From: a virus
IMG/VR virus record: IMGVR_UViG_3300023313_000007
Location: 1 to 60,791 of that record
Strand: one strand, 5' to 3'
DNA length: 60,791 nucleotides
Below the pieces are notes generated by a model. That model did no database searches. It was not told the origin of the DNA and saw nothing but the letters and a program-made list of their open reading frames with translations. Positions 1,799 to 5,633 of this stretch are shown here, piece by piece; position 1 is the first letter of the stretch; each line of letters starts with the position of its first letter. A program made the translations under genes and the position numbers.

Positions 1799-3583
1799 AT
1801 GTTTGTATTATCTGGGGGAAATGTCTCCAACCTTAATAACTTTGTGTTACCTGTTATCAAAGGGGTAAAAAATGCTAAAGCCAAGTTTATAACCTTCGAG
1901 GATTATAAAACTATGGCCATTCCCAAGGGGAGTGTCGTCTTAGCTTTAGGTAATAAGTCCTTAGAGCTTCTACAGGACGAAGGAGCTATCCCCAAAAATA
2001 GGGCTATGGCCTCCATGCGAGGGCAGGAGATTGTTTTTAATGGTAGCTCGTGGTTCTTCTCCTATGACCCATATATAATTACACAAGACTATTCCAAGAA
2101 GACTCTAGTAGCTTGGGATATTAAGTTAGCCCTAAGGAAGGAGCTCACAGGTAGTACTGCCCCCGAGGTAGGGACTTATAGCTTTGTCGATGACTGGCAG
2201 TTTTTTATTAAGAAGATTGAGGACACCTATGCTAAGACAGGAAAAGCTGTAGCAGTATGTTGTGACACTGAGACTATTGGGCTAAACCCTTATCTTGAGG
2301 ATAAATGGTTAGAGTCTATACAGTTCTGCTTAGAGGAGGGAGTGGCATACTGTCAGAGGTTTAGAACCTTAGCTAACCAGCCCCTAGTTGGAGATACCAT
2401 CTGGAATCAAATTGACTGGATTCTTAATAGCCCTAAGGTAAAAATAGTTGGAGCTAACTTTAAATATGACCTTCGATGGATGCTTGTTAAATGGGACATG
2501 ACTTGCACCAATTATGCTTTTGACACCACTTTAGTAGGGTCACTATTAGATGAGAATAGGTCTAATAGTCTGGAGACCCACGCTAAGGTGTACACCTCTA
2601 TGGGTGGGTATGATGCAACCATGAATACAACCTATGATAAAGGTAGAATGGATTTAATACCAGATGATGACTTTTTAACCTATTCAGCAGGGGATGTAGA
2701 TGCTTGCCTAAGAGTATATGTTGAACTTAGAAAGGAGTTACTCCAAGACCCTTTTTTAACCCGCTTCTATGTCCGACTCTTACATAGAAGCAATATAGCC
2801 TTTATGGATATGGAGTGTTTGGGGGTATGCTTAGATAAAGAATACCAAGGCTCTTTAGCTTTAGAATTGGAACAGGATAGGCTTAATGTTTCTACAGCTA
2901 TGCTAGAGAAATTACCTGTTAAGTTAAGATTAAAACATGCAGATAATCTGAGTATTAGACCTGCCATATTGAAAGACTACTTTTTCGGGGCTAGAGGGTT
3001 AGGGCTACCCCCCAAACTACTAACAGAAAAGACACAGCAGCCCTCTACAGCCCTAGAGCATTTTATGATGTTCTCTGATTGCCCAGAGGCTACGGAATTT
3101 GTATCCCTGTTAAAGAAGTATGGGAGTGCTGGAAAAACATTGTCTACCTATGTTGTAGGGTTCAATAAGCACCTACAGGCTGATGGTAGGTTTCACCCAG
3201 ATTATATGCTACACAAGGGGGACTATAATGGTGCGGCTGACTCTGGGACGGATACAGGCAGAAGTTCATGTAAGTCCCCTGCATTACAATGTCTACCCGC
3301 AGACGCTGAGGTTCTTACTGACCTTGGAGTAATGCCTATGCTCGACATTATAGAAGGGTGTGAGGGCGGTGTACCCGTACAAGTATTAACCCATACAGGT
3401 GAGTGGAAGCCCGTGGTTGGAACCTACAGGAATGGGGTACAGCCTTTACACGAGTTCACATTAGCCGATGGGAAGACCTTACAGTGTACAGGAAATCACC
3501 CAATACTCACCACTAAGGGATTTATACTTGCAAAAGACATTACCAAAGAGCACACCTTTATGGTGAGGGGGACTAATGAATAG
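1799..3583 (+). CDS. polA: DNA polymerase I (family A), N-terminal part fused to an intein N-half
   Basis: Replicative family A polymerase, first piece. Residues about 150-300 form a DnaQ-like 3'-5' proofreading domain: Exo I DTET (near 156), Exo II NFKYD (near 220) and Exo III YSAGD (near 294). The thumb and palm regions follow, up to SPALQ at residue 497. There the polymerase is interrupted by an intein N-fragment of 97 residues, beginning CLPADAEVLTDLG with block B GNHPILT. The gene stops at TAG 3581, inside the intein. The rest of the polymerase is in the next gene, which begins within the last eight bases of this one. AAGGAGGT precedes ATG 1799. A functional enzyme needs joining of the two products, by protein splicing in trans, unless the break is an indel error. 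Confidence 0.92.
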   Translation: MFVLSGGNVSNLNNFVLPVIKGVKNAKAKFITFEDYKTMAIPKGSVVLALGNKSLELLQDEGAIPKNRAMASMRGQEIVFNGSSWFFSYDPYIITQDYSKKTLVAWDIKLALRKELTGSTAPEVGTYSFVDDWQFFIKKIEDTYAKTGKAVAVCCDTETIGLNPYLEDKWLESIQFCLEEGVAYCQRFRTLANQPLVGDTIWNQIDWILNSPKVKIVGANFKYDLRWMLVKWDMTCTNYAFDTTLVGSLLDENRSNSLETHAKVYTSMGGYDATMNTTYDKGRMDLIPDDDFLTYSAGDVDACLRVYVELRKELLQDPFLTRFYVRLLHRSNIAFMDMECLGVCLDKEYQGSLALELEQDRLNVSTAMLEKLPVKLRLKHADNLSIRPAILKDYFFGARGLGLPPKLLTEKTQQPSTALEHFMMFSDCPEATEFVSLLKKYGSAGKTLSTYVVGFNKHLQADGRFHPDYMLHKGDYNGAADSGTDTGRSSCKSPALQCLPADAEVLTDLGVMPMLDIIEGCEGGVPVQVLTHTGEWKPVVGTYRNGVQPLHEFTLADGKTLQCTGNHPILTTKGFILAKDITKEHTFMVRGTNE

Positions 3584-3722
3584 TGATTATGAGGTATCAA
3601 AGAAGGCAGGGTTTAAAGAATCAAAATTAGTAGGCATAAAGAGGGTAGACCCTCAAGAAACATATGACTTAACTATACAAGATAGCCATTCTTTTGTGGC
3701 TAACGATATTGTGGTACATAAT
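3290..3722 (+). mobile_element. Split intein at the polymerase QNIP-like site
   Basis: N-half: Cys1 at 3290-3292 to the stop at 3583, 97 residues, with block A and block B (TGNHP). C-half: ATG 3576 to Asn at 3720-3722, 49 residues, ending SFVANDIVVHN before Thr+1. Exteins join as SPALQ-TIPKHTSW, matching the conserved LQNIP region of family A polymerases. Sizes of about 97 and 49 are those of natural split inteins. The C-half has its own GAGGGG ribosome-site-like sequence. There is no endonuclease. Caveat: dropping one G from the GGGGG run at 3567-3571 would fuse both frames into one 147-residue mini-intein, so an indel must be excluded. Confidence 0.85.
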
Positions 3723-5633
3723 ACAATACCCAAGCATACAAGTTGGGCAAAGCCTTTGCGGAAGGCGTACAATGCCCCAGAGGGGATGGTAATATTATCC
3801 TGTGACTATTCCGCAGGAGAGATGCGGGTGGCGGCAGACTTTGCTAATGAAGAAAATATGCTAAATGCTTTTAATACTGGGGTAGATATTCATTGTGCCA
3901 CCGCAGCAGGATTGATGGGAATGAACCTAGCTGATTTCATGTTACTAAAGGACGCTGACCCCAAAGCTTTTAAGAGCGGTCGCCAAGGCGCGAAGGCTGG
4001 TAACTTCGGCTGCCTTCTAGGGCTATCCTATTGCATTACAGATAAAGGGTCTGTACAGTTGCGTAATATAAAAAAAGACCACAAGGTATGGGACGGGGAA
4101 AACTTTGTCAGTCACGATGGTGTGATTTACCAAGGCGAGCAATGGGTGATAAAGTACCAAGGCTTAGAAGCAACTCCATGCCACAATGTTTGGGTTGAGG
4201 ACGGTACACATGAAGGGAAAAAATGTAGCCTTTACGAGGCCGCCACTAAAAAACTTAACCTTAGAAGAACTAGCCCAAAGATTGAAAGAAAAGGACTTAG
4301 GCACTATAACCCTAGACCTAAGTACTCTACGAAGGGAAAAACGGCACAGAATGGTGGACGGTACTTGCTCCGATTGCGGAGAGACAAAGACCTATTATGC
4401 TTCAAACATAACAAGAGGAATGACCACCACTTGCCGTTGCCAGAGGAATGTAAAGTACCCCAATCTGGTACACGCAAGGGTATTAGGGAATCGTTACGAT
4501 TCTATGGTACAGCGGTGCGAAAGAGATACCCATGTCTCCTCCCACAGATACAAAGGGCGGGGAATAAAATGCCTGTTCAAGTCAAGAGAAGACTTTGTAT
4601 ATTGGGTACTAGAGAATCATTACAGGGACGATTACAAAGGGTTGGAGTTCGACAGGATAGACAACGATGGGCATTACGAGCCAGAAAATTTAAGGCTGGT
4701 ATCCTCGAAAGAGAACAAACGAAACCTGCCCAACAATGTGTACCTAATATACAAGGGGGTTCGGATGTATTGGCAGGATTTCAAAAGTCCTTACAGTCCG
4801 AGAAGAACCCAAGCGTTTGCGAGCAAGGGGATGTCGGGGGAGGATATTATCCTCCGTGCAAAGACATCAGTCCAGAAAAGGTGCAAGAGTTGGAGGCTCA
4901 TGGAATTACGCTTAGAAAAGCTAGGGTCTATGACATCCTAAATGCAGGGGTAAACCACAGATTTACATGCTCTGGGGTATTAGTAAGTAATTGCCTGTAT
5001 GGTATGAGTGCTGGAGGGTATCAAGCCTATGCGGAAGCTACCTACGGTGTTATTATGACTATGCAGGAGGCAGAGGTGGCTAGAGAAAGATTTTTTGGCA
5101 TGTACCCAGCCCTACCAGAATGGCATACTAGAACCAAGAACTTTGCTAGGGCTAATGGGTATGTTCGTTCGCCTTTAGGTAGATTAAGACACCTGCCCTT
5201 AATAACTGCTAGAGATGGGGCTATTAGGTCTAAGGCAGAAAGGAATGCGGTAAACTCCTCAGTGCAGGGTACTTTATCTGACCTTACACAGTTATCCTTA
5301 GTCATCTTGAGGGAGACTTATGGTTTTAAGGACTTACAGCCTCTGATGATGGTGCATGATGATTTAAAATTTTATGTACCTAAAGACGATGCCCTTATGT
5401 GGGCAGATAGGGTATGTAATGTTATGAGTACCCTACCTTTGAAGGAGGAGTTTGATTGGTCTCCTCGTATAACCTTTAATGCTGACCCAGAGGTAGGACT
5501 TACTTTGGCTAGTATGGAAGAACTAGAGACATGCCCTAATTGTGGGGAGCGTAATCTAGTTCATAGGGCTGTAGGAGAGGACTATTGTCTACGCGATTAT
5601 TACACAGGAGATAAACATACATGCGCTCAGTAA
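3576..5633 (+). CDS. polA: DNA polymerase I, C-terminal part with an internal intein
   Basis: Begins with the 49-residue intein C-half, then polymerase palm: motif A DYSAGEMR (catalytic Asp, Glu kept), motif B RQGAKAGNFG interrupted after NFG by a 327-residue intein, resuming CLYGMSAGGYQ. Motif C reads MVHDD where most family members have VHDE. The phenylalanine of the O helix (NFG) is the wild-type dNTP-selective residue. The C-terminus adds a possible zinc ribbon (CPNCG, DYC, HTC) that I do not associate with this family. Both inteins removed, the two genes give an enzyme of about 806 residues, the usual exo plus pol size. The end overlaps the next small gene. Confidence 0.92.
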   Translation: MNSDYEVSKKAGFKESKLVGIKRVDPQETYDLTIQDSHSFVANDIVVHNTIPKHTSWAKPLRKAYNAPEGMVILSCDYSAGEMRVAADFANEENMLNAFNTGVDIHCATAAGLMGMNLADFMLLKDADPKAFKSGRQGAKAGNFGCLLGLSYCITDKGSVQLRNIKKDHKVWDGENFVSHDGVIYQGEQWVIKYQGLEATPCHNVWVEDGTHEGKKCSLYEAATKKLNLRRTSPKIERKGLRHYNPRPKYSTKGKTAQNGGRYLLRLRRDKDLLCFKHNKRNDHHLPLPEECKVPQSGTRKGIRESLRFYGTAVRKRYPCLLPQIQRAGNKMPVQVKRRLCILGTRESLQGRLQRVGVRQDRQRWALRARKFKAGILEREQTKPAQQCVPNIQGGSDVLAGFQKSLQSEKNPSVCEQGDVGGGYYPPCKDISPEKVQELEAHGITLRKARVYDILNAGVNHRFTCSGVLVSNCLYGMSAGGYQAYAEATYGVIMTMQEAEVARERFFGMYPALPEWHTRTKNFARANGYVRSPLGRLRHLPLITARDGAIRSKAERNAVNSSVQGTLSDLTQLSLVILRETYGFKDLQPLMMVHDDLKFYVPKDDALMWADRVCNVMSTLPLKEEFDWSPRITFNADPEVGLTLASMEELETCPNCGERNLVHRAVGEDYCLRDYYTGDKHTCAQ
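4011..4991 (+). mobile_element. Intein in polymerase motif B (O helix)
   Basis: The intein runs from Cys1 (TGC 4011) to Asn (AAT 4989), 327 residues, with Cys+1 at 4992. CLLGLSYCITDKG aligns position by position with the other intein's CLPADAEVLTDLG. Block B is EATPCHNVW. Blocks F/G read VYDILNAGVNHRF and GVLVSN-C, with Ser instead of the usual penultimate His. About 210 residues in the middle are Arg/Gln-rich with no recognisable domain, because that DNA encodes an HNH endonuclease in another frame. The intein frame nevertheless stays open throughout. Splicing would restore NFGCLYGMS, the normal motif B. Confidence 0.9.
4210..4941 (+). CDS. HNH homing endonuclease nested out of frame inside the intein
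   Basis: Reading +1 relative to the polymerase/intein frame, this ORF encodes about 243 residues. They contain a CSDCG...CRCQ zinc knuckle followed by a typical phage HNH/AP2-class domain: a YDSMVQRC helix, YKGRGIKC, LEFDRIDNDGHYEPENLR and a KENKRN tail. GAGGA sits eight bases before ATG 4210; an ATG at 4186 in the same frame is the alternative. It stops at 4941, overlapping the start of intein block F. The protein homology lies in this frame, not in the intein frame. It is presumably the enzyme that spreads the intein to intein-less polA genes. Confidence 0.85.
   Translation: MKGKNVAFTRPPLKNLTLEELAQRLKEKDLGTITLDLSTLRREKRHRMVDGTCSDCGETKTYYASNITRGMTTTCRCQRNVKYPNLVHARVLGNRYDSMVQRCERDTHVSSHRYKGRGIKCLFKSREDFVYWVLENHYRDDYKGLEFDRIDNDGHYEPENLRLVSSKENKRNLPNNVYLIYKGVRMYWQDFKSPYSPRRTQAFASKGMSGEDIILRAKTSVQKRCKSWRLMELRLEKLGSMTS

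Follow-up and report, generated by a model that had tools for sequence, protein, structure and literature searches.

The polymerase gene polA of a 60.8-kb phage record carries an intein that encloses an HNH endonuclease gene in a second reading frame, and about 170 other phage inteins were found to be built alike, so that the design is widespread and not peculiar to one sequence. We consider it likely that the element is a mobile phage intein with an overprinted, separately translated homing endonuclease, a reading in which splicing, translation and cleavage are inferred.

An intein with a nested HNH gene in polA

The window (the whole stretch of DNA that was analyzed, 60,791 nucleotides of IMG/VR record IMGVR_UViG_3300023313_000007) contains the following features.

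3576..5633, + strand: polA C-terminal ORF (685 aa), carrier of the intein (Pfam DNA_pol_A, 7e-42)
3723-4010 and 4992-5633, + strand: extein parts of this ORF
4011..4991, + strand: intein of 327 codons in PolA motif B, junction NFG/CLYGM (N-block profile E=4.6e-30; PDB intein/Hint fold matches)
4011..4283, + strand: N-terminal half of the predicted Hint splicing domain, residues 1-91, with Cys1 and TxxH at residues 55-58 (pLDDT >87; conserved columns)
4284..4850, + strand: intein-frame filler, about residues 92-280, overlapping the HNH gene (pLDDT <50; predicted disordered)
4851..4991, + strand: C-terminal half of the predicted Hint domain, residues 281-327, VLVSN followed by Cys+1 (pLDDT mostly >90; invariant residues)
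4197..4201, + strand: Shine-Dalgarno (SD)-like GAGGA, 8 nt before ATG 4210 (sequence and SD scan)
4210..4941, + strand: HNH endonuclease gene, +1 to polA, 243 aa, with a longer form from ATG 4186 possible (PHROG 374, E=8e-29; AlphaFold pLDDT 87)

The intein begins with Cys1 (TGC at 4011), ends with the final Asn (AAT at 4989-4991) and interrupts the sequence NFG/CLYGMSAGGY, which is motif B of family A polymerases. The polA frame runs without a stop through all 327 intein codons, and the residue criteria for a class 1 intein were met (C1, T55-x-x-H58, N327 and Cys+1). Invariant residues of the C-terminal part are Y307, D308, N311, G313, R317 and N327; the penultimate residue, 326, is Ser in place of the common His. 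AlphaFold gave a confident Hint domain from residues 1-91 and about 281-327, and nearly all of residues 92-279 had a pLDDT of <50; the model thus predicts a complete Hint fold at the intein ends with a disordered middle. The top matches of this model in the PDB were inteins, NpuDnaE and gp41-1 among them, and a hedgehog Hint domain, at an E value of about 2e-3 owing to the disordered filler. The intein frame had no match in Pfam or NCBIfam, and a sequence search of solved structures returned none for either the intein or the HNH protein.

The HNH frame is open from 4168 to the stop codon at 4939-4941, and the gene lies wholly within the intein. Two starts are available, ATG 4186 (251 aa, without SD) and ATG 4210 (243 aa, GAGGA at 8-nt spacing), of which the latter is likely the one used. 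The protein matched PHROG 374 ("HNH endonuclease," E=8e-29) and PHROG 3377 (E=3e-21) but nothing in Pfam, and its confident AlphaFold model (pLDDT 87) found no solved relative in a PDB fold comparison. Its conserved residues are D148-R149, N160 and N172. The motif thus reads D-R where classical HNH enzymes read D-H, with R149 invariant in 22 relatives. Given this Arg in place of the classical first His, and without cleavage data, catalysis is unproven and can only be inferred.

The original prediction, made from the sequence alone, had proposed most of this layout. Its intein at 4011-4991 in motif B with good terminal splicing blocks held (intact ends, Hint model), as did the HNH protein of about 243 residues at +1 over 4210-4941 with its own GAGGA (ORF, PHROG 374, 8-nt spacing), the lack of an endonuclease in the intein's own frame (no Pfam or NCBIfam match) and a filler without recognizable domain (no family match, disordered in AlphaFold).

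Upstream of this intein, at 3297-3722, the window polA is split inside a first intein into two ORFs (1799-3583 and 3576-5633, 8-nt overlap). The N-half of that intein ends the first ORF and the C-half begins the second, with no endonuclease between them; it is apparently a split intein. A related polymerase (L332) is split at the same intein, and another (L333) has an unsplit intein there. Both carry an additional intein at DTGR/C that is missing from the window.

Occurrence of the layout in other phages

A tblastn search recovered the same intein/HNH layout in phages of Streptococcus, Gardnerella and Salmonella, in APSE and in other phages. For a census, viral and genome contigs were searched with the intein N-block alone, which avoided selection for the layout; loci from earlier searches are also included in the set. 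Among 202 distinct starts, 191 had a recognizable C-end, and the remaining 11 were fragmentary, had a broken frame or were weak second matches. The HNH frame lay at +1 in 141 of the 191 and at +2 in 27; 23 were mini-inteins without HNH. The HNH was in the intein frame in 0 of the 168 intact full-length inteins that carry one, so that the canonical in-frame design was not met. An in-frame endonuclease of another type was considered and rejected: there was no family match, and no census intein of >200 aa lacked an HNH. Among relatives with both ends intact, we found neither a frameshift placing the HNH in the intein frame nor a stop in the intein frame, either of which would have refuted the original prediction. 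One further locus (L249) is a frameshifted copy of another sequence in the set (L016), and L274 is broken by a frameshift.

The carriers included PolA at motif B, PolA at GGKL/CEN, and SNF2/DEAD-type helicases, the same design being seen within helicase genes of the latter type in L275 and L142. Four polA genes (L252, L255, L258 and L327) have two inteins each, with the HNH at +2 in motif B and at +1 at the later site. In L267 (3501-4682) and L293 (3501-4953) the intein frame is not open, and N-intein, HNH and C-intein are separate ORFs; these look like overprinted inteins that have become fractured (split). In L047 (2416-3732) the 5' part of polA is lost, and the HNH frame is fused to an unrelated sigma-factor-like N-terminal ORF. 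In the Jersey-type locus L027 (2439-3245), frameshifts connect the intein N-block to the HNH frame, possibly through sequencing error.

An assembly or sequencing frameshift that masks an ordinary in-frame HNH intein is all but excluded as an explanation. Nothing was found in its favor, and two compensating errors would be needed. A second UViG (3300013233_000123, IMG/VR) overlaps the window with 11.6 kb identical, which argues against a hidden frameshift, with the reservation that this contig possibly represents the same virus and the same sample. The same offset recurs across more than 100 different contigs, isolate genomes and prophages, and the public record of APSE-1 annotates the layout, with HNH gene P46 inside the DNA polymerase gene P45.

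Selection and stop avoidance in the overlap

Substitutions were analyzed in six equal-length groups of relatives; the pairs are not independent, and the figures are descriptive. The window has no close intein-bearing relative, and selection was therefore measured in the other groups. Within the intein N- and C-blocks, substitutions fell mostly at position 3 of the polymerase-frame codons, and mostly likewise in the exteins, with the exception of the 307-aa group (five pairs), which showed no position-3 excess there. In the overlap, the fast position moved to the HNH third position, i.e., intein position 1 in the +1 groups (49 to 54%) and intein position 2 in the +2 groups (60 to 61%). This switch at the overlap, and the reversion beyond it, occurred in both kinds of groups. 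Over the 274 pairs of the largest group (42 sequences), amino acid identity in the overlap was 0.715 for the HNH, 0.410 for the intein frame and 0.405 for the unused frame.

The HNH frame in the relatives is under ordinary purifying selection. The filler is not selected as protein, since identity in the intein frame equals that in the unused frame; within the overlap, the intein frame is held only against stops, and residue conservation there does not exceed that of the unused frame. A hidden domain in the filler was likewise rejected (no conservation in relatives, no predicted fold). The criterion for an overprinted pair was met, with both frames open, purifying selection on the HNH and stop avoidance in the intein frame. 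The proposal that both frames are constrained thus held in part, for the HNH frame as a protein and for the intein frame only as a stop-free stretch.

The openness of the intein frame had been called improbable by chance, and this held. The HNH protein and its codon set were kept fixed, synonymous codons were re-dealt, and stops in the intein frame were counted. For the window, the shuffles gave a mean of 12.3 stops, and 0 of 300 were stop-free; the unused third frame of the overlap really contains 18 stops. None of the 168 intact full-length inteins had an intein-frame stop in the overlap, against shuffle expectations of 8.7 (+1) and 3.5 (+2) stops per locus among the relatives. At +1, a stop in the intein frame arises only where an HNH codon has T in third position and the next codon begins with AA, AG or GA. 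Before these dinucleotides the window HNH has 0 NNT and 24 NNC codons, compared to 42 NNT and 34 NNC elsewhere (Fisher p=1.7e-7), and the representative +1 genes together have 0 NNT versus 1872 NNC. HNH relatives outside inteins, which usually have several stops in each of the other two frames, show 1424 NNT versus 1079 NNC (1424/2503 NNT) in the same context. Met followed by an A-starting codon, forbidden at +2, occurred in 0 of 44 cases in +2 genes versus 133 of 327 in HNH relatives outside inteins. An intein frame open by chance is ruled out by the codon shuffles and the missing stop-making codon contexts.

The exchange of NNT for NNC is always synonymous, and because all +1 stops need the third-position T, every one of them can be removed silently and the +1 offset is easily maintained, whereas some +2 stops cannot be removed in this way. 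This might explain why +1 is the commoner offset, although the number of captures is too small for a test of this idea.

Expression, mobility and comparison with known inteins

In the favored reading, the polymerase frame would be translated across the entire insert, and the intein ends would fold as a Hint domain and splice themselves out (the fold is predicted; splicing is inferred from conserved residues), with the disordered middle as a linker thrown away with the intein. The mRNA would also yield the HNH protein, translated separately from an internal start with its own SD and ATG (signals shown, translation inferred). It would then cut or nick the intein-free polA of co-infecting phages, for which the alleles are shown and cleavage is inferred, and repair of the cut gene would copy the intein into the intein-free allele, which is also inferred. 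Against this reading stand the absence of splicing, translation or cleavage data, the D-R motif, the Ser before the last Asn and the lack of a clear SD at APSE-type loci.

Start signals were scanned in the relatives. Of the 44 loci in the 309-aa group, 38 have an ATG at intein nt 145, and 28 have an SD-like site ahead of this position, such as AGGAGG at 9 nt in the Gardnerella phage; the ATG is partly fixed by conserved intein residues, and its conservation is therefore weak evidence. SD-like sites precede 17% of the ATG/GTG triplets in the HNH frame versus 7% in the third frame, and the scan found no clear SD at APSE-type loci. The HNH ORF lengths in the scan leave out 27 of the 141 +1 loci, which lack the motif used. 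Stops listed for the HNH frame in the census matches are no sign of decay, because these matches begin ahead of the HNH ORF.

An alternative is programmed frameshifting from the polymerase frame, which would produce the HNH only as a fusion to the N-intein. In its favor, APSE-type (+1) loci lack a good SD, and their HNH frame opens shortly after the N-block; frameshifting is not excluded there. A -1 slippery heptamer lies near the entry in 6 of the 27 +2 loci but is missing from the other 21, and the window and many +1 relatives have an SD and ATG (+1 slippery sites were outside the systematic scan). Overall, we regard this alternative as unlikely.

Less likely still is that the HNH frame is a dead relic, neither made nor active in the window, with the intein alone of importance. 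Loss of the HNH is common (the 23 mini-inteins and the remnants L004, L266 and L327), a stop interrupts the HNH frame in two loci (L005 and L028), and D-R invariantly replaces D-H. Against this, the window HNH keeps 243 open codons, every conserved family residue and the stop-avoiding codon pattern, and the HNH frame is under purifying selection in the relatives. We therefore retain an overprinted, separately translated endonuclease as the preferred interpretation.

A tree of HNH proteins from inside and outside inteins showed one +2 clade, two main +1 clades separated by free-standing proteins, and one extra singleton (L286). This topology implies at least three captures. In the first of the +1 clades, the window grouped with L318 and L194, then with L145 and L247. 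The tree is a quick one with many weak forks and an arbitrary root, and two rows labeled as free (L047 and L100) are actually intein-derived. It supports only three or four captures, too few for the lack of in-frame cases to be read as selection against that arrangement.

Motif B is uninterrupted (NFGLLYGM) in the three closest relatives of the window polymerase (L332-L334), and intein-free polymerases with 91% and 96.7% identity were found in Streptococcus and Jersey-type phages, respectively. Since intein-free alleles exist in close relatives, the insertion is patchy and mobile. For homing, the presence/absence polymorphism is shown and cleavage of the intein-free site inferred.

Canonical full-length inteins have an in-frame endonuclease (PI-SceI, LAGLIDADG; Ssp GyrB, HNH). 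Like them, the present inteins have Hint ends, encode an endonuclease between blocks B and F and are inserted, with patchy occurrence, at a conserved site of a replication enzyme; unlike them, they do not include the endonuclease in the intein protein: it is read at +1 (or +2), and the intein frame gives only a disordered filler. Split inteins whose halves flank a free-standing endonuclease are known from fractured genes; there, as proposed for the window, the endonuclease is produced apart from the splicing domain, but the window intein is a single continuous polypeptide. In the ShiLan element, a phage DNA methylase carries an HNH in another frame, without a detectable splicing domain (PMC11855218). 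It resembles the window in its second-frame HNH within an insertion across which the host frame stays open, whereas the window HNH is enclosed by a complete Hint domain and does not meet the ShiLan-type criterion of no splicing domain. The design itself recurs in the HNH genes inside PolA inteins of APSE-1 (P46 at +1) and Jersey-type phages (+2), although the APSE insertion site and the Jersey offset differ from the window. Over 160 Jersey-type records contain most of the intein region, and many are named "intein-containing DNA polymerase precursor."

The original prediction knew of no well-described nested overprinted example. This held only in part: the design is the rule in this phage intein family, and the APSE-1 P45/P46 annotation and ShiLan's out-of-frame HNH without intein (PMC11855218) amend the claim. 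No statement of the overprinted design of APSE or Jersey was found in the literature searched, excluding two possibly relevant papers on non-canonical inteins. Both are cited by PMC11855218: Gorbalenya 1998, "Non-canonical inteins" (NAR 26:1741), and a preprint by Gosselin et al. (bioRxiv 10.1101/2025.01.02.630785) on a "non-canonical architecture" in actinophage inteins. These two may possibly describe the out-of-frame design, and novelty as a variant of known inteins is reserved. A bolder interpretation, toward which we lean by a small margin, is that of a large phage intein family in polymerases and helicases, always with a second-frame endonuclease, with at least three independent HNH captures and shaped by a genetic-code rule (at +1, NNT to NNC alone frees the host frame of stops), a class not previously described as such.

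In textbook inteins, the endonuclease is one of the domains of the intein itself; here, splicing and homing functions share DNA and not protein, and the endonuclease can therefore be expressed and decay independently of the host enzyme. With many aligned cases and two offsets, these inteins constitute a natural system for studying how overlapping genes are maintained. Where annotation calls a single ORF per locus, the endonuclease of a whole intein family is overlooked, and names such as that given to the Jersey-type records conceal a second gene.
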